Below the pieces are notes generated by a model. The model was not told the DNA's origin and did no database searches. It saw nothing but the letters and a program-made list of their open reading frames with translations. From NCBI GenBank assembly GCA_018715085.1, contig DVMI01000002.1, positions 1 to 64,000 on the forward strand: 64,000 bases of DNA, read 5' to 3'. The DNA comes from Candidatus Avidesulfovibrio excrementigallinarum. Lineage in GTDB: Bacteria; Desulfobacterota; Desulfovibrionia; Desulfovibrionales; Desulfovibrionaceae. The position numbers and the translations under genes are program-made. Below, in pieces: positions 1 through 17,458 of this stretch. Each line of letters starts with the position of its first letter. Position 1 is the first letter of the stretch.

Positions 1-314
1 GGCAGCTTAGAAATGACGGACCGTCCGTGAAAGTCAATGATGACTGTTCACTGCCGCATAGGCAGCTTAGAAACGCAATCATCGCCGTGAGGGTGTCCTT
101 TTCGAGTTCACTGCCGCATAGGCAGCTTAGAAATGGGCAATGTCACTGACCACGACCTGCTTGACGTTCACTGCCGCATAGGCAGCTTAGAAAGCATAGT
201 TGCCGCTGGTGCCGCAACCGGCGTCCGTTCACTGCCGCATAGGCAGCTTAGAAAGAGGAGAAGGAAAGCGCGGCCTTGGCTTTCGGGTTCACTGCCGCAT
301 AGGCAGGTCAGGAA
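1..314 (+). CRISPR. Type I-F-like CRISPR array, leader-distal end (array continues left of window)
   Basis: 28-bp repeat GTTCACTGCCGCATAGGCAGCTTAGAAA at 46-73, 106-133, 166-193, 227-254; partial copy at 1-13; degenerate terminal copy at 287-314 (GTTCACTGCCGCATAGGCAGGTCAGGAA); spacers of 32-33 nt. Repeat resembles the known I-F consensus. Confidence 0.97.
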
Positions 315-8753: not shown

Positions 8754-10031
8754 TCAGGCATGGGCGTTGCCGACACGCAGCGTCAGCCTGCCTTCGGCAT
8801 CAAAGGTGACCGGCTGCGGGTCGCTGAGGATTTCAAAGCGATCCGTATCCGTCAGGTCAGGCAGCACCGCCGGTGAAACAAAGCAGTCTGTAAGATACAG
8901 CGTATTGGGCACATGCACCAGGCGGACCTGTTCCTGCGGGATGCTGCGCAGGCAGAACATCATGGTTTCAAGCGTTTCCTGATCGGTGTCAAACCAGGTC
9001 GGGAAGAACGCGCGGGTTACGAACGTGGTGGTCAGGTTGTTCAGGTAGGTGGCCTTGCGGTCGATTTTGTCAATGAGGCGCTGGGTCACAAAGTCCGTCA
9101 GACCTATGCCCGTTGCGTTGCCGTGGGAGGCCTCTGAAAGGTCAAGCACGCTGATATAGCGGATGACGGGGGATTCGGGTTCTGCCTCGCCGGTGATGCG
9201 CAGGCGGCCGATGATGTTGGTGTCTACGCCTGTGCCGCTGAAGTTCTTGCCCATTTCTTCGACAATAAGTCCGTGCAGGTGGCTGACCGGCAGGGAGGGC
9301 ATGAGAGACTTGGACCAGGCAAGAAGCTTGATTTCCTCGTCGAGCATCTCCTCGGCATACAGGGCCTGAATGCGGGCGGTTTCTTCATAGGCGTTTTCCA
9401 CAATGGCCACGCCGCCAATGACCGGCATTTTTTCAAGAATAATCCGGCTTACGTCCACAAGCAGGCGGGGCAGCTGCGACTGTCCCAGGCTGTGGAACTG
9501 ACCGGCTCCGCTGGGACCACCAAGCCCCACAACGAGCTTTTTGGCCAGGCCGCTTTCGACGCAGCCTTTGAACGAGGTGTGTGTCTTGACGCGGTTGATG
9601 GGAATGATGGCGTCGACGCTGAACGCCGAATCAAGCATGTGGGCCACAAGACCGTCGGCAGTGGCGCCGATGGCGCGGCCGGTGGCGCAGGTGATGACCT
9701 TGGCTCCCAAGCGCTCTTCGGTAATGCCAAGGCTGTCCAGCACTTCTTTCTGTCCGGTTTCTGTTCCGCCGCCATGGCTGCCCATGGCCGCCAGCAGCAC
9801 CGGCGTTGCGCCTTTTGCGCGCACCACGCCGATGGCCGCTTCCAGCATCGGCAGAATGTTCTGAATGCCCCGGCTGCCAACGGTAATGCCCACAGTTGTG
9901 CCCGGTTGAATGCGGGGCGCAAGTTTTTGCATCTGGGCAGTCATTTCAGCGGCGGGATCCGCGACAGTGGGGCGGGCAAAGGTTTGCCGTATGCGAATCA
10001 TTGGAGGCAGAGGCCTGCGGGTGTCAGCCAT
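8754..10031 (-). CDS. Lactate racemase N-domain (Lar_N/DUF2088)-like protein
   Basis: MGSHGGGTETGQKEVLDSLGITEE and NRVKTHTSFKGCVESGLAKKLVVGLGGPSGA resemble the LarA-related family; start MADTRRPLPP. Confidence 0.7.
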   Translation of the reverse strand: MADTRRPLPPMIRIRQTFARPTVADPAAEMTAQMQKLAPRIQPGTTVGITVGSRGIQNILPMLEAAIGVVRAKGATPVLLAAMGSHGGGTETGQKEVLDSLGITEERLGAKVITCATGRAIGATADGLVAHMLDSAFSVDAIIPINRVKTHTSFKGCVESGLAKKLVVGLGGPSGAGQFHSLGQSQLPRLLVDVSRIILEKMPVIGGVAIVENAYEETARIQALYAEEMLDEEIKLLAWSKSLMPSLPVSHLHGLIVEEMGKNFSGTGVDTNIIGRLRITGEAEPESPVIRYISVLDLSEASHGNATGIGLTDFVTQRLIDKIDRKATYLNNLTTTFVTRAFFPTWFDTDQETLETMMFCLRSIPQEQVRLVHVPNTLYLTDCFVSPAVLPDLTDTDRFEILSDPQPVTFDAEGRLTLRVGNAHA

Positions 10032-10250
10032 GGGTTCAACTCCTTGGAGTGGTTGTATCGGGCCTGGAGCGGTTCGACGCGCCCGCAGAACCGTTCTGCT
10101 GAGGCGGGAAAGGCGGCGTCCGACAACGGGAAGACCCCGTTTTTGTAACAGGCGCAGTGTACGTTGGAACCGGCCTGCTTTCAAAAGAAATTTATGCCGG
10201 CAGACGGTTGCCGCGGCGCGGGGCAGGCCATGGCAACCGTCTGGCAGCGG

Positions 10251-11714
10251 CTACAGAAGTCCAATCAGCGGGAACCAGACAAGAGCCATGACAGTCCAGA
10301 CTATCCAGGCCATCAGGCCCACGGCAAACGAGGACTTGAGCTGTTCGGGCACGGTAAAGTATCCCGCGCCGTACATGATGATGTTGCCCATGGTGTTAAA
10401 GGGCAGGAACAGTGCATAGCCCATGAGAATGGCCAGAGGCAGCACAAAACCGACAATGGGGAAGCCGAACGTCTGGGCCAGCCCGATGTAAATAGGAATC
10501 ATCACGCCGGCCATGGCTGTGGTGGTGGACCAGATGATGTGACTGAAAATTGTGAATCCCATCAGCCCGATCAACAGCGGCATCATGCTAACGTCGCTCA
10601 GTCCCAGGGAGGTGATGAGCGTTTTGATGAGCCATTCAAAGGCCTTGGTCTTCATGAGCACGCCGCTGAGGGTAATGACTCCGCCAAAATAGACGAACAG
10701 CTCCCAGGGAATGGATTTCTGAGCCTCTTTCCAGCTGAGCACGCCGACTTTAGGCAGCAGGATCAGCGTGCAGACGCCAAAGGCAACCATGGTGGCGTTG
10801 AAGTGATGCCACATGTCGGTGGACCAGAGCACCAGAGCAAGGAAGAAGTAGAACAGAGATTTTTTTTCGCGCAGGGTCATGGGACCCATCTGGGCCAGTT
10901 CGTCTTCAATGTAGTGGATTCCACCCGGGATGCTTTTCATTTCGGGGGGGTAGAACCAGCGCACCACAAACAGCGTGCCGACAAGAATGATGACGGTGGC
11001 GGGCACTGCGGCCAGCGCCCAAAAGCCCCAGGAAGTGGCCACGGATGTTGTGCCAAGTGCGGCAGTGATCAGGCCGATGGCAATGGGGTTGGGGATGGTG
11101 GCCGTCATGAAGCCGCCCGCAGTGATGTTGGATGCGAACGTATTGCACAAAAACAGCGTTTTGCCAAAGTTGCTGGTGCCTTTTTCCACGCGATAGGCCT
11201 GGGCGACGCCTTCGACAATGGGCAGCATGGCCGCTGTGCGGGCCGTGTTGGAGGGAGTCAGCGGCGAAATGAGCAGGTTGGCAAACATGGGCGCGAGGAT
11301 GGCGCCGGTCGGTGTTTTGCCCAGCAGGCGCATCATATTGAGGGCAACGCGCCGTGCCATGCCGGTTTCTGTCATGGCAATGGAGATGATGAAGCCGGTG
11401 ACGAGCATCCACAGCGACGTTGTGCCAAAGCCGGACAACGCAAAACTGGCGTTGTGAATGAGAACACCGTCTTTCATGGCGCCATCGGCGTTGCCTACCC
11501 AGAAATACAAAAGTGAGATGATAAGGAACGTACTTGTGGCAAAGCTGACGCTGAGGGTCACCCACAGCACTACGGCACCGGCAAAGATGGCCAGAAGCTT
11601 ATGTTGTACAAGGGTCATTCCTTCCGGCGTGGGCAGCAGCCAGACGAGGAAAAAGACGGCCACGGCAATGATATTGCCGTATTTTTTGCCAAGTTCTTCA
11701 AAACGATTTGCCAT
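10251..11714 (-). CDS. DASS-family (SLC13/CitT-like) dicarboxylate/anion transporter
   Basis: Multi-TM protein with SPLTPSNTARTAAMLPIV and FLPFNTMGNIIMY motifs of the DASS family; start MANRFEEL. Confidence 0.88.
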   Translation of the reverse strand: MANRFEELGKKYGNIIAVAVFFLVWLLPTPEGMTLVQHKLLAIFAGAVVLWVTLSVSFATSTFLIISLLYFWVGNADGAMKDGVLIHNASFALSGFGTTSLWMLVTGFIISIAMTETGMARRVALNMMRLLGKTPTGAILAPMFANLLISPLTPSNTARTAAMLPIVEGVAQAYRVEKGTSNFGKTLFLCNTFASNITAGGFMTATIPNPIAIGLITAALGTTSVATSWGFWALAAVPATVIILVGTLFVVRWFYPPEMKSIPGGIHYIEDELAQMGPMTLREKKSLFYFFLALVLWSTDMWHHFNATMVAFGVCTLILLPKVGVLSWKEAQKSIPWELFVYFGGVITLSGVLMKTKAFEWLIKTLITSLGLSDVSMMPLLIGLMGFTIFSHIIWSTTTAMAGVMIPIYIGLAQTFGFPIVGFVLPLAILMGYALFLPFNTMGNIIMYGAGYFTVPEQLKSSFAVGLMAWIVWTVMALVWFPLIGLL

Positions 11715-12470: not shown

Positions 12471-13625
12471 TTACAGGCCGGGCTCTGCTTCAACAATATC
12501 CAGCCAGTGGCGGACACTGACGCCTTCCGGCGCCACGGAGGCAAGCTGCATGGTGCAGCCGCTGCATCCTGTGACGATGCTGTGGCAGTCTGAGGGAAAG
12601 CCTGCCAGGCATTTTTTGCCCAGTTGGGCGGACACGTCGGGGTCGCTCATCTTAAGAATGCCCCCCATTCCGCAGCACAGGGCCGTCCCCTTGGTCAGTC
12701 CGGGCAGGGCGCGTTGCAGTAAAGGCCAGTCCGGATCGTTGTCGCCCCAGTGGCAGGGCTGATGGTATCCGGGCATGGCAGGCGCTGCCGGCAGAGTCCG
12801 GATGATCGCGCCTTCAAGCAGAGCGCTGAGCCCCTTGACGCTCGCGCGCCACAGGGCCGCGTCATCGCCATCCAACAGGCCTTCCTGTTCGGCATAGCCT
12901 TCAAGACTGTGCTTGCAGGAGGCGCAGAAGACAGCCAGCACAGGCTTGCCCAGCGCTTTCCAGCGTTCGATATTGCGCCGCTGCACGTCGGCCTGGGCTT
13001 TGAACATGCCGGCGTGGTGCAGCGTTCCGCCGCAGCAGGTAAAGCCGTCCTGTTCAATGACCTGGTACCCCCACACTTTGAGCAGCGCGCGGGCTTTGGC
13101 AATCCACTGCGGGCGGATGTTGCGGGCGGTACAGCCTGCAAAGACAGCCACAGGACGCGAAGGGGCCGTCCAGGCTGGATCCGGGCGCAGAGTGAACCAT
13201 GTCTGGGGTTCGCCCTTGTCAACCATGGCGCGCGCCGTGTCCAGCGAAGATTGCAGCGCCTCGGGCGTCAGCGCATCGGGGAACATGGCGGCAAGGCGTC
13301 CGGCCGTGGGCCAGAGAGGGCCGGCGCGGCGGATCCAGATATCCCAGATATACTGACTCCAGTGCGGATGGCTGGCCCGGACCTCCGCAAGCAGGTCGCT
13401 GGTCGACAGCTTGCGCGCGCACGCTTTTTTACAGCGTTCGCATCCGGCGCACAGCCGTGACAAATCCCGGATGATCTTCCAGGGCATGGGCTCTTCCGCT
13501 CCCCAGCCGTCCAGCGGCTCCATGAGCAGGCGTTTGCCCTTGGGGGCGTATTCCTCACGCTTGAACAGCGCAAATACCGGACAGACGTTCAGGCATTCGC
13601 CGCATTGTGTGCATCCGCGCTTCAT
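12471..13625 (-). CDS. Fe-S oxidoreductase subunit, GlcF-like (two [4Fe-4S] motifs plus CCG domains)
   Basis: CTQCGECLNVCP, CAGCERCKKAC, FTCCGGTLHHAG, ALCCGMGGI. Confidence 0.9.
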   Translation of the reverse strand: MKRGCTQCGECLNVCPVFALFKREEYAPKGKRLLMEPLDGWGAEEPMPWKIIRDLSRLCAGCERCKKACARKLSTSDLLAEVRASHPHWSQYIWDIWIRRAGPLWPTAGRLAAMFPDALTPEALQSSLDTARAMVDKGEPQTWFTLRPDPAWTAPSRPVAVFAGCTARNIRPQWIAKARALLKVWGYQVIEQDGFTCCGGTLHHAGMFKAQADVQRRNIERWKALGKPVLAVFCASCKHSLEGYAEQEGLLDGDDAALWRASVKGLSALLEGAIIRTLPAAPAMPGYHQPCHWGDNDPDWPLLQRALPGLTKGTALCCGMGGILKMSDPDVSAQLGKKCLAGFPSDCHSIVTGCSGCTMQLASVAPEGVSVRHWLDIVEAEPGL

Positions 13626-13627
13626 GA

Positions 13628-15007
13628 TCAGTACCCCTTTGCGGGATTGAGAATCCCGTTGGGATCAAACAGTTCGCGGACTTGGCGCATCATGGCGTGC
13701 TCTTCCTTTCCAAGCTGGCGGCCTACGTCCTTCAGGCAGCCTCCGCCGTGCTCTCCTGAAAGGCTTCCGCCAAATTCCAGCACCGCTTCGTCAAGTTCGT
13801 GGTGTGTTTTGAGAGTCCGTTCGGTGTCGTCCGGATCCGAGGCGTCATAGTGCAGATTGGCGTGGATGTTGCCGTCGCCGGCATGGCCAAAGCCGATCAG
13901 GCGCTTGCCGTTGTTGCGGGCGATTTCTTCAAACCGGCGGACGGCCTTGAGCAGTGAGCCGCGGGGCACGGCCATGTCGCCGCCGATACGGTCCGGTCCA
14001 AGAACGTAGGAGGCGGCCGACACGCGCCGGCGGAAGGCCCAGAGCTTGTTTTCCTCTTCTGCTCCTACCCCTTCCATGGTCCACAGGGCGTCATCCAGCT
14101 GCCTGGCCAGACGGGCGTTTTCAAGCGGAATGGTCTCCCGGCTGCCGTCGATCTGGAACAGCAGCAGAGAATGCACCGTATCGGGCCACGGGCATTCGCC
14201 GGTTTTAGTGAGAATTTCCAGCACAGTTTCGTTCATGAATTCCACGGCGCAGGGCAGAATGCCGGCGGCAAACACCTTGCCCATGGAGCTGAGCGCAGCG
14301 TCAAGTGACGGATAGCCGACAAGAACCGAAGCCGAGGCTTCCGGCTTGGGCAGCAGTTTGAGGTAGAGCTTGGTGACAATGCCCAGCGTGCCTTCGCTGC
14401 CCACAATCATGCGGGACAGATCAAGGCCGATGACGTCCTTGTGGGTTCGGCCGCCAAGCTTAAGCAGCTTCCCGCCCGGCAGGACGATTTCCATGCCAAG
14501 CACATAGTCGCGGGTCACACCGTATTTTACGGCGCGCAGGCCGCCGGCACAGGTCATGACGTTGCCGCCGACTGTTGTGGCTTTGCCGCTGGCCGGATCC
14601 GGTGGATAGAAAAGGCCGCGTTTGGCACATTCGGCCTGGAATTGAGCCGTGTTGACGCCAGGTTCGATTTCCGCAACGAAATCTTCGTTGGAAATGTCAA
14701 GAATGCGATCCATGCCGGTCATGGAGACGACAATGCCCGGCCTGGTGGGCACGCACCCGCCTGACAGGCTGGTTCCCCGGCCCCGCGGATGAATGTACAC
14801 GCGCTCCTCGTCAGCCCAGCGCATCAGCGTCTGCACCTGACTGGTACAGGTGGGGCGCACCATGGCGAGCACGGTGCCCGTCTTCAGACTGGCGTCTGAA
14901 GCATACACGCGCAGTTTTTCGGGTTCAAAGGTCACCGCATCGCCGAACGTGCGTTTCAGATATTCGATGTGCGACTCGCTCAAGGCTGTAATGTGCGTCT
15001 GGGTCAT
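13628..15007 (-). CDS. FAD-binding 2-hydroxyacid oxidase/dehydrogenase, GlcD-like
   Basis: PRGRGTSLSGGCVP, VGGNVMTCAGGLRAVKYGVTRDYVLG, GFGHAGDGNIHAN, GGSLSGEHGGG. Confidence 0.93.
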   Translation of the reverse strand: MTQTHITALSESHIEYLKRTFGDAVTFEPEKLRVYASDASLKTGTVLAMVRPTCTSQVQTLMRWADEERVYIHPRGRGTSLSGGCVPTRPGIVVSMTGMDRILDISNEDFVAEIEPGVNTAQFQAECAKRGLFYPPDPASGKATTVGGNVMTCAGGLRAVKYGVTRDYVLGMEIVLPGGKLLKLGGRTHKDVIGLDLSRMIVGSEGTLGIVTKLYLKLLPKPEASASVLVGYPSLDAALSSMGKVFAAGILPCAVEFMNETVLEILTKTGECPWPDTVHSLLLFQIDGSRETIPLENARLARQLDDALWTMEGVGAEEENKLWAFRRRVSAASYVLGPDRIGGDMAVPRGSLLKAVRRFEEIARNNGKRLIGFGHAGDGNIHANLHYDASDPDDTERTLKTHHELDEAVLEFGGSLSGEHGGGCLKDVGRQLGKEEHAMMRQVRELFDPNGILNPAKGY

Positions 15008-15405
15008 GCTGATACTCCGACAGAAAGCAGGTGAAAGGCTTGGCGCGGGGTGCCGCGTCGTGGAAAAAGCATGTCTGGCTGGCGGGATCCTCCGCCTGTG
15101 CAGCCGGAGGGACCGCGCTGCTGTTGCCGGTGCAGGGTCGTTCGCCAGGGCTGTTCAGAGCCTTTTGTGTCCATGGCAGGCGGCGCCGCAGGAACGATTC
15201 CGGGACGGCCGGAACCGGTCTGCCGCGTCCTGCTTTGTCAGGGCACGCTGGCCGTTTCAGAAGGCGCTTGGCAACAGCGCTGTCTTAAACCGGCAGCCGG
15301 AAGGCCGCGCGGCGTGCGCAGGCAGGCGGAAAAAACGCCCAGCCACAGGCAAAGCCAGACAGCGCAAAGCAGTGCTATGCGCGCCGCACACGCCTGTCAA
15401 GTGGC

Positions 15406-15423
15406 TAGCAAGTTTTGTTCCGT
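15406..15423 (-). promoter_or_regulatory. Candidate sigma54 (-24/-12) promoter upstream of the GlcD-like gene
   Basis: Minus strand ACGGAACAAAACTTGCTA: GG and GC dinucleotides separated by 10 nt. Confidence 0.45.
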
Positions 15424-15485
15424 AGAGGACGTTTATTGTAACATATTTATATTAATTATAAAAAATAGAAAGGTAGAGTTCGATT

Positions 15486-15510
15486 GTTGCAAAATGATGC
15501 GGTATGCAAC
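15486..15510. promoter_or_regulatory. Candidate activator binding site (UAS), inverted repeat
   Basis: GTTGCA-N13-TGCAAC, about 65-90 bp upstream of the candidate -24 element, AT-rich DNA between. Confidence 0.45.
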
Positions 15511-15541
15511 ATTATTGCAGCATGCGCACCATATATGGGGT

Positions 15542-17458
15542 TCAAAGCTGGAGGCGTTTTATTTTGCGGAACAACGTACTGCGATTCATACCCAGCAGCT
15601 GTGCCGCCTGGCTCCTGCGGCCATGGCATGCCTCAAGCGCCTGAAGAATGCGTTCCCGCTCGTCTGTGACGCCATCGCCGGCAGAAAAGTGGCTTCCTCT
15701 GCGGGACGCGCAGGAATCCGCCGAAGGCGTGGTGTCACCGCCCGGCAGCAGCTCAGCTTGCAGCACTTCGGCCGTCAGTTCGTCGGGGCAGGCGGCGCAA
15801 AGACGCTGAATGAAGTAGTACAGCTCCCGGACGTTGCCGCACCAGGGATGTTCTTTCAGAACCTGGGCCGCATCGGCCGAAAGGGTCATGCCGCGCAGCA
15901 GAGGCGTCTGATTAAGAAAATGCCGCGCCAGTACGACAATATCTCCTTCCCGTTCGCGCAAAGGCGGCAGGTGCAGCAGCAGAACGCAGAGCCGGTAGTA
16001 GAGATCGGCGCGGAACCGTCTGGCCCGGACGCGTTCCCACAGGTCGGCGTTGGTGGCGGCGATGATTCTGACGTTGATGGGAATGGGGTGAGAACCGCCA
16101 ATGCGCAGGACATACTGACTTTCAAGCACACGCAGCAGGCGCTGCTGGGCGTGGAGGTTAAGCTCGGCAATTTCATCAAGAAACAGCGTGCCGCCGTCGG
16201 CCAGTTCAAAGACGCCTTTTTTGCCTTTGGCGCTGGCTCCGGTAAACGCGCCCTTGTCGTAGCCGAACAGCTCTGACTCCAGCAGCGACTGTGGCAGGGC
16301 CCCGCAGTTGATGGCCACAAACGGACCGCTGCTGCGGGCGCTGGCGTTGTGAATGGCCTGGGCAAACAAATCCTTGCCCGTGCCGGTTTCGCCGTCGATC
16401 AGCACGGTATGATCGGACGCTGCAAACCGTCTAGCCCGGGACAGTGCCCGGACAAGGAGGCCTGAGCTGCCTTTGATGTCGTCAAAGGTCTTCAAGGCGG
16501 GAACACCCTGATATTTGGCGTGAAGTTGCAGCTTGTTTTCCTGAGCGGCAATCTTTTGTGCCTCATGGAACGTCAGGATGGCCCCTTTTATGACATTGTT
16601 GACAAAAACAGGCATGGCGCTGAGCAACAGCTGCTGTTCCCCGAGGGGCACAATTTCGTCGTATATCGGCTTGCCAAACAGAAGACACTGCTCAAGACCG
16701 GGCAGGGTCAGAACGGCCCCGAACGGCTGATCGAGCATGTCGGTCTGGAGGCGGAGTATGCGGCGCGCGGCAGGATTGAGCAACTTGATGGAGCCTGTCG
16801 CATCAAGTGAAATCACGCCTTGCGGAATCGCTTCGATGGCCGATTGGAACTTGAGGGTCTGCGTCTGCTCGAGTTCGCGGGCGTAACAAATGCGCTTGGC
16901 CATGTTGAGGGCCTGCCGGATGGCCGTTTCTCCCGTGGTCAGAATCTGGCTTTTCAGCCCCAGTTTCCTGGCGATGGCAAGAGGCGTTTCACCGCCAATC
17001 AGCACGTCAACGTTATCGGCAAGGGCTGTCAGCACGACATTGTGCATGGATTCCTTGGTCCAGAAACTGGGGTAGACCCGCAAATCCACATGCGGCAACA
17101 GGCGGGACAAGGCTTCAAGATCGGGGCGAAGCTGCGGGAAGACGGTAAAACCGATTCTGGGATGAGGAGAGGCCGTCTGCGCAAGCGCCCTTTCCAGCGT
17201 CATGACCATGTCCTGCACGCTGATGGGGATGAAGGAGACTGGGGTGCGGATACCGGCCTCGATAATCTGATTGGCAGACCAGCCGCGCGCAACGATGACG
17301 CTTGCGCCCTCGGCTTCGGCCTGCCGGGCGATGGCCAGAGAATTGTTCAGCCCGGTAAGATGCAGGCTGATCTGATCCTGGATGTCCAGTTCGGCTGCAA
17401 CCTGCTGGACATTGGCATAACTGGTACTTTCAGGCGCAATGACGACAATGGGATTCAT
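15542..17458 (-). CDS. Sigma54-dependent transcriptional activator, PrpR-type N-domain + PAS + AAA+ + Fis HTH
   Basis: N-terminal PrpR-like sensor (SVIVARGWSANQIIEAGIRTPVSFIPIS), GETGTGKDLFAQAIH, GAFTGA, C-terminal RRSQAAQLLGMNRSTLFRKIKRL. Confidence 0.92.
   Translation of the reverse strand: MNPIVVIAPESTSYANVQQVAAELDIQDQISLHLTGLNNSLAIARQAEAEGASVIVARGWSANQIIEAGIRTPVSFIPISVQDMVMTLERALAQTASPHPRIGFTVFPQLRPDLEALSRLLPHVDLRVYPSFWTKESMHNVVLTALADNVDVLIGGETPLAIARKLGLKSQILTTGETAIRQALNMAKRICYARELEQTQTLKFQSAIEAIPQGVISLDATGSIKLLNPAARRILRLQTDMLDQPFGAVLTLPGLEQCLLFGKPIYDEIVPLGEQQLLLSAMPVFVNNVIKGAILTFHEAQKIAAQENKLQLHAKYQGVPALKTFDDIKGSSGLLVRALSRARRFAASDHTVLIDGETGTGKDLFAQAIHNASARSSGPFVAINCGALPQSLLESELFGYDKGAFTGASAKGKKGVFELADGGTLFLDEIAELNLHAQQRLLRVLESQYVLRIGGSHPIPINVRIIAATNADLWERVRARRFRADLYYRLCVLLLHLPPLREREGDIVVLARHFLNQTPLLRGMTLSADAAQVLKEHPWCGNVRELYYFIQRLCAACPDELTAEVLQAELLPGGDTTPSADSCASRRGSHFSAGDGVTDERERILQALEACHGRRSQAAQLLGMNRSTLFRKIKRLQL

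Follow-up and report, generated by a model that had tools for sequence, protein, structure and literature searches.

A probable sigma54-dependent control region between a PrpR-type activator gene and a 2-hydroxyacid operon in Candidatus Avidesulfovibrio excrementigallinarum

How is an operon for the oxidation of hydroxyacids switched on when the gene directly upstream of it encodes a PrpR-type activator? This question is raised by a 64,000-nt stretch of the genome of Candidatus Avidesulfovibrio excrementigallinarum, here called the window. Comparison with related loci makes it very likely that positions 15408-15522 control the hydroxyacid operon that follows and are themselves switched by the adjacent PrpR-type activator. 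The features of the locus, in the direction of transcription, are as follows.

15542-17458, minus strand: regulator gene, 638 amino acids, with PrpR_N, PAS, AAA+ (with GAFTGA) and Fis-type helix-turn-helix (HTH) domains (Pfam)
15485-15522, minus strand: candidate upstream activator site (UAS) TGCTGCA-ATAA-TGTTGCA-TAC-CGCATCA-TTT-TGCAACA, a 15/16 match, with the same array in loci L045-L049
15422-15484, minus strand: AT-rich spacer from UAS to promoter, 24% GC, the only 50-nt stretch with 20% GC or less in 64 kb
15408-15421, minus strand: predicted sigma54 -24/-12 element GGAACAAAACTTGC in the context TACGGAACAAAACTTGCTAG, ranked top with an 11-promoter matrix
15395-15397, minus strand: predicted start of transcription, some 12 nt beyond the -12 GC, from the usual sigma54 promoter geometry
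15008-15395, minus strand: predicted untranslated leader of 388 nt, counted up to the GlcD ATG (15007) with transcription beginning about 12 nt beyond the GC
13628-15007, minus strand: GlcD-like FAD-linked 2-hydroxyacid dehydrogenase, first gene of the predicted operon (Pfam, NCBIfam)
12471-13625, minus strand: GlcF-like Fe-S subunit (domain and family matches, cluster in relatives)
10251-11702, minus strand: DASS-family sodium/anion (dicarboxylate-type) symporter (TIGR00785 over cut-off; related to solved dicarboxylate transporters)
8754-10037, minus strand: nickel-pincer cofactor-dependent isomerase, group 22, LarA superfamily (NF052515)

Activator, half-site array and promoter element

The regulator combines an AAA+ sigma54-interaction domain with an HTH (PF00158, PF25601, PF02954) and by its domains is a one-component sigma54 enhancer-binding protein (EBP). 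The GAFTGA motif that the original prediction had placed in its AAA+ domain is there and intact. Its best NCBIfam match is the PrpR family TIGR02329, but the score is below the cut-off (343 versus 499 bits), as is that for NF011953 (320 versus 703 bits), so that it does not qualify as a PrpR equivalog.

Where might such an activator bind? The original prediction had pointed to an inverted repeat, GTTGCA-N13-TGCAAC, and this repeat is found 65-89 bp upstream of the -24 GG (15486-15491 and 15505-15510); it is no isolated palindrome, however, but belongs to an array of four TGNNNCA half-sites that spans 38 bp (15516-15522, 15505-15511, 15495-15501 and 15485-15491). On the operon strand the half-sites start at 0, 11, 21 and 31 bp, that is every 10-11 bp, a periodicity that would put all four on one face of the helix. 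Fifteen of the 16 defining bases are present, with the mismatch confined to one half-site, and no other array with at least 14 of 16 occurs in the 64 kb; half-site spacings of 3 or 4 were permitted post hoc, once the sequences had been seen. In the 2.1-Mb draft genome, scanned with three spacing variants, it is the best array found and the sole match with one mismatch. Under a first-order Markov model, none of 40 simulated 64-kb windows contained an array with at least 15 of 16 bases, and about 0.00025 such arrays are expected per 120-bp AT-rich region.

The GG-N10-GC spacing that had drawn attention to the promoter is indeed present on the minus strand, at 15421-15408 (GGAACAAAACTTGC). By itself this spacing is no evidence, because the window has 1,343 instances of it (both strands), 10 of them in the 534-nt spacer between the regulator gene and glcD; it is informative only in context. 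In GGAACAAAACTTGC the GG and GC lie 10 bp apart in a TGGCAC-N5-TTGC-like context, and the site ranks first among about 128,000 strand positions in the window with a matrix that comprises 11 promoters of related loci but not that of the window, and twelfth with a matrix from the five closest promoters alone. Since its 13.1 bits fall below the score of every related promoter (17.5-25.7 bits, leave-one-out), it is a divergent and probably weaker promoter; the base before the GG is C in the window and T in the related promoters.

Are array and promoter conserved together? Phylogenetic footprinting in other genera, as the same-genus contig of G009 begins inside glcD and G008 lacks the region, indicates that they are. 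Orthologous regulators with about 55-57% identity were found by local tblastn in five genomes of the genus g17 of the same family, the regulator of L048 being 57% identical to that of the window. All five loci (L045-L049) carry the four-half-site array, with 14-16 of the 16 bases, between the regulator gene and the next operon, located 82-97 bp upstream of a clear TGGCAC/T-N5-TTGCT sigma54 promoter, for example TGGCACAAAGATTGCTT; the distance between UAS and promoter differs among loci. Six more distant regulators of about 40% identity (L057-L062, all of g22, although g22 and g39 were not separated in this comparison) are divergent from a DASS gene, and the intergenic DNA contains TGNNNCA half-sites or arrays followed by TTGGAACGNNNTCTGCT-type promoters. 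The promoter form of this clade is TTGGAACG-N3-TCTGCT, and GGAAC is common to the g22-type promoters and that of the window. Repeated dyad sites upstream of the promoter are thus conserved with the regulator, as arrays in g17 and as TGNNNCA clusters in g22, and this comparative evidence backs the original prediction of a sigma54 promoter with an activator site. Moreover, the array-bearing regulators share a recognition helix, RSTL[FW]R[KR], and no array was found near regulators with other recognition helices in the fetched DNA. An apparent exception, L063 (g39), reads as degenerate TGAAACG half-sites with a GGAACGATTGCTGC promoter.

Spacer, leader and sigma factor

The DNA between array and promoter had been described as very AT-rich and capable of binding IHF. 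The former is borne out by the 24% GC of the spacer, and 50-nt windows with 20% GC or less occur only within 15418-15495 in the entire 64 kb. The latter found no support: the best match to WATCAANNNNTTR in the spacer is 8/9, which is reached in 22% of shuffles (P=0.22), and the TTGATAYCA present in the spacers of the g17 relatives is absent from that of the window. Genes of the HU/IHF family exist in the genome, but none reaches the IhfA cut-off. The spacer is probably flexible and suited to DNA looping.

The same spacer could also harbour a promoter of another kind. A sigma70 promoter with an extended -10, TTTATA-N16-TACAAT (15462-15435, minus strand), might drive the operon, in which case the TGNNNCA sites would serve a repressor or have some other role. 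It is a single 9/12 match with a TG ahead of the -10; however, chance alone would give 0.8 such matches in the scanned region, AT-rich DNA favours them, and the relatives have clear sigma54 promoters at the same place, which leaves this reading improbable.

Transcription from the sigma54 promoter would produce a leader of about 388 nt, close to the 390 nt estimated originally; it is not unusually long, as had been thought, since the leaders of the g17 relatives span 90-502 nt. No Rfam family matches the leader, its folding is not unusual (z-score -1.0), and a terminator-like hairpin (15361-15336) is poor in G-C pairs and lies where 6 such hits were counted versus an expectation of 3.4+-1.9. 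An attenuator or riboswitch was rejected on the lack of an Rfam match, the z-score and the weakness of the hairpin. The leader has no significant protein or DNA similarity to the loci of the relatives, which also led to the rejection of an origin from genes once located between regulator and glcD, and no sigma70-like site was found on the minus strand between 15008 and 15400. In three of the related loci (L045, L046 and L049), leaders of 470-500 nt before the 2-oxoacid oxidoreductase operon hold a conserved near-palindrome, TAGACTGTTTATGTAAACAGT, and the conserved blocks GGCAGGGGGC.T and AACCAGCCGGCT.TCGGCACAAACCCGCATGGGGA; these elements may represent a second site for a regulator together with a structured RNA leader, and the L045 leader has no credible Rfam match.

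Is there a sigma54 to act at such a promoter? The three draft genomes of the window's genus (G000, G008 and G009) yielded no rpoN domain. In relatives, rpoN comes after lptB, behind pyrG and its neighbours. In the genome of the window (G000), contig C155 carries both pyrG and lptB and breaks off just past lptB, and in G008 the contig terminates inside the gene adjoining pyrG. The absence is likely an assembly gap; a true loss of rpoN in the genus was judged less likely because the contig stops right after lptB. RpoN is also expected to exist because the genome encodes about 22 strong EBP domains.

Downstream genes and the proposed pathway

What would the promoter control? The GlcD of the window is 80-81% identical to the GlcD of the same cluster in L045, L046, L048 and L049, and the isomerase belongs to group 22 (NF052515, 453 bits versus a cut-off of 400). 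The gaps between the genes appear enlarged throughout the predicted operon of the window, as that between glcF and the DASS gene (768 nt versus roughly 90 nt in L048) and that between the DASS and isomerase genes (213 nt versus roughly 25 nt) both exceed those of L048. Convergent to the isomerase gene lies a radical-SAM gene for heme b synthase (AhbD, TIGR04545; 7317-8465, plus strand), and the left edge of the window (46-314, plus strand) contains five CRISPR direct repeats of the Rfam family CRISPR-DR4.

In g17 the promoter is followed by genes for a ferredoxin-like protein, 2-oxoacid:acceptor oxidoreductase subunits, succinyl-CoA ligase, glcD, glcF, the DASS symporter and the group-22 isomerase. 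It could be imagined, therefore, that the control region of the window is the decaying relic of a version that in the relatives precedes an oxidoreductase and ligase operon, and that most glcD transcripts come from an unseen promoter or read through from the regulator gene. Such decay would account for a promoter weaker than those of the relatives, for oxidoreductase and ligase (kor/suc) genes that in the window's genus are located elsewhere in the genome without an array, and for a long leader unrelated to the relatives' sequence. Yet 15 of 16 array bases and the GG..TTGCT core are retained at 57% regulator identity, the regulator and all four enzyme and transporter genes are intact, and the minus strand of 15008-15400 offers no sigma70-like site, so that we give decay a slim chance, slightly below that of the sigma70 promoter. 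A chance resemblance devoid of regulatory function can practically be dismissed: GG-N10-GC is frequent, but array, best promoter of the window, sole AT-rich stretch, order, spacing and adjoining regulator all coincide. As a separate observation, the 2-oxoacid oxidoreductase genes in three loci of the window's genus (L104, L105 and L106) adjoin a divergent response-regulator-like gene, not a PrpR-type activator.

Because the relatives' promoter precedes a cluster of 2-oxoacid:ferredoxin oxidoreductase, succinyl-CoA ligase and glcD genes, the gene set suggests uptake of a 2-hydroxy-dicarboxylate and its oxidation via the 2-oxoacid to an acyl-CoA. The simplest candidate substrate is perhaps 2-hydroxyglutarate; the oxidoreductase subunits score under the 2-oxoglutarate-specific cut-offs. 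A connection between the isomerase and the known hydroxyglutarate racemase of "D. desulfuricans" was considered and abandoned, because the species in question is Deferribacter desulfuricans and the protein of the window falls into group 22. In four divergent loci (L050, L051, L054 and L055), too, a group-22 isomerase gene is a near neighbour of a PrpR_N activator, which suggests a recurrent pairing of sensor and enzyme. More tentatively, and with doubts that outweigh our confidence, we propose that a so far undescribed branch of PrpR_N activators, which uses a TGNNNCA-array code of its own, runs a complete oxidation route for 2-hydroxyglutarate or a similar 2-hydroxy-dicarboxylate, comprising import by DASS, the group-22 isomerase, GlcDF, 2-oxoacid:ferredoxin oxidoreductase and succinyl-CoA ligase, in one cluster in g17 and in two in the window's genus. 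No reported substrate of group-22 nickel-pincer isomerases was found in the literature consulted; if the proposal is true, the route would supply one.

Proposed mode of action and relation to known systems

How could the switch operate? In the preferred reading, an activator-controlled sigma54 promoter, we infer the following sequence of events. The PrpR-type activator encoded directly upstream would bind the four TGNNNCA half-sites as dimers or a higher oligomer, and a DNA loop across the flexible AT-rich spacer would let its GAFTGA ATPase open sigma54-RNA polymerase held at GGAACAAAACTTGC. Transcription would start near 15396 and proceed through the leader into glcD-glcF, and probably into the symporter and isomerase genes too. 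The signal would probably be a 2-hydroxy- or 2-oxo-dicarboxylate, with 2-hydroxyglutarate as first guess, sensed by PrpR_N and/or the PAS domain.

The control region adds a well-supported example to a type of switch that is already known. In the prpBCDE system of enteric bacteria, PrpR acts with 2-methylcitrate, sigma54 and IHF (PMC10101121), and as in the window a one-component PrpR_N-AAA+-HTH activator is encoded beside a sigma54-dependent catabolic operon. In contrast to PrpR, the regulator of the window is under both PrpR equivalog cut-offs, has a PAS domain, is co-oriented with its operon and has as its putative target the oxidation of hydroxyacids instead of propionate, and an IHF site is unsupported. 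One-component EBPs of Desulfovibrio vulgaris Hildenborough control local regulons, with the EBP gene adjoining the sigma54 promoter, the UAS mostly within about 100 bp and carboxylic-acid metabolism among the targets (PMC4641369). Like the regulator of the window, DVU0569 has a promoter downstream of its own gene, and the three half-sites of the DVU2956 site are akin to the multi-half-site array described here, whereas most of the grouped motifs consist of TGT/ACA pairs at distances of 9, 11 or 12 bp; PrpR is not mentioned in the text of that study (PMC4641369). PrpR_N domains in EBPs and the same logic of UAS and promoter are also found in the sigma54 regulons of Clostridiales, with the consensus TTGGCATNNNNNTTGCT, albeit in different bacteria, with different targets and, according to the text, with TGT/ACA inverted repeats as the largest motif group (PMC6615313).

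The locus illustrates that the reading of a sigma54 control region from sequence alone can gain backing from comparison. With the anatomy of the activator site corrected, mutations can be positioned precisely, and the regulon offers a testable function for this branch of PrpR_N activators and for the group-22 nickel-pincer isomerases.
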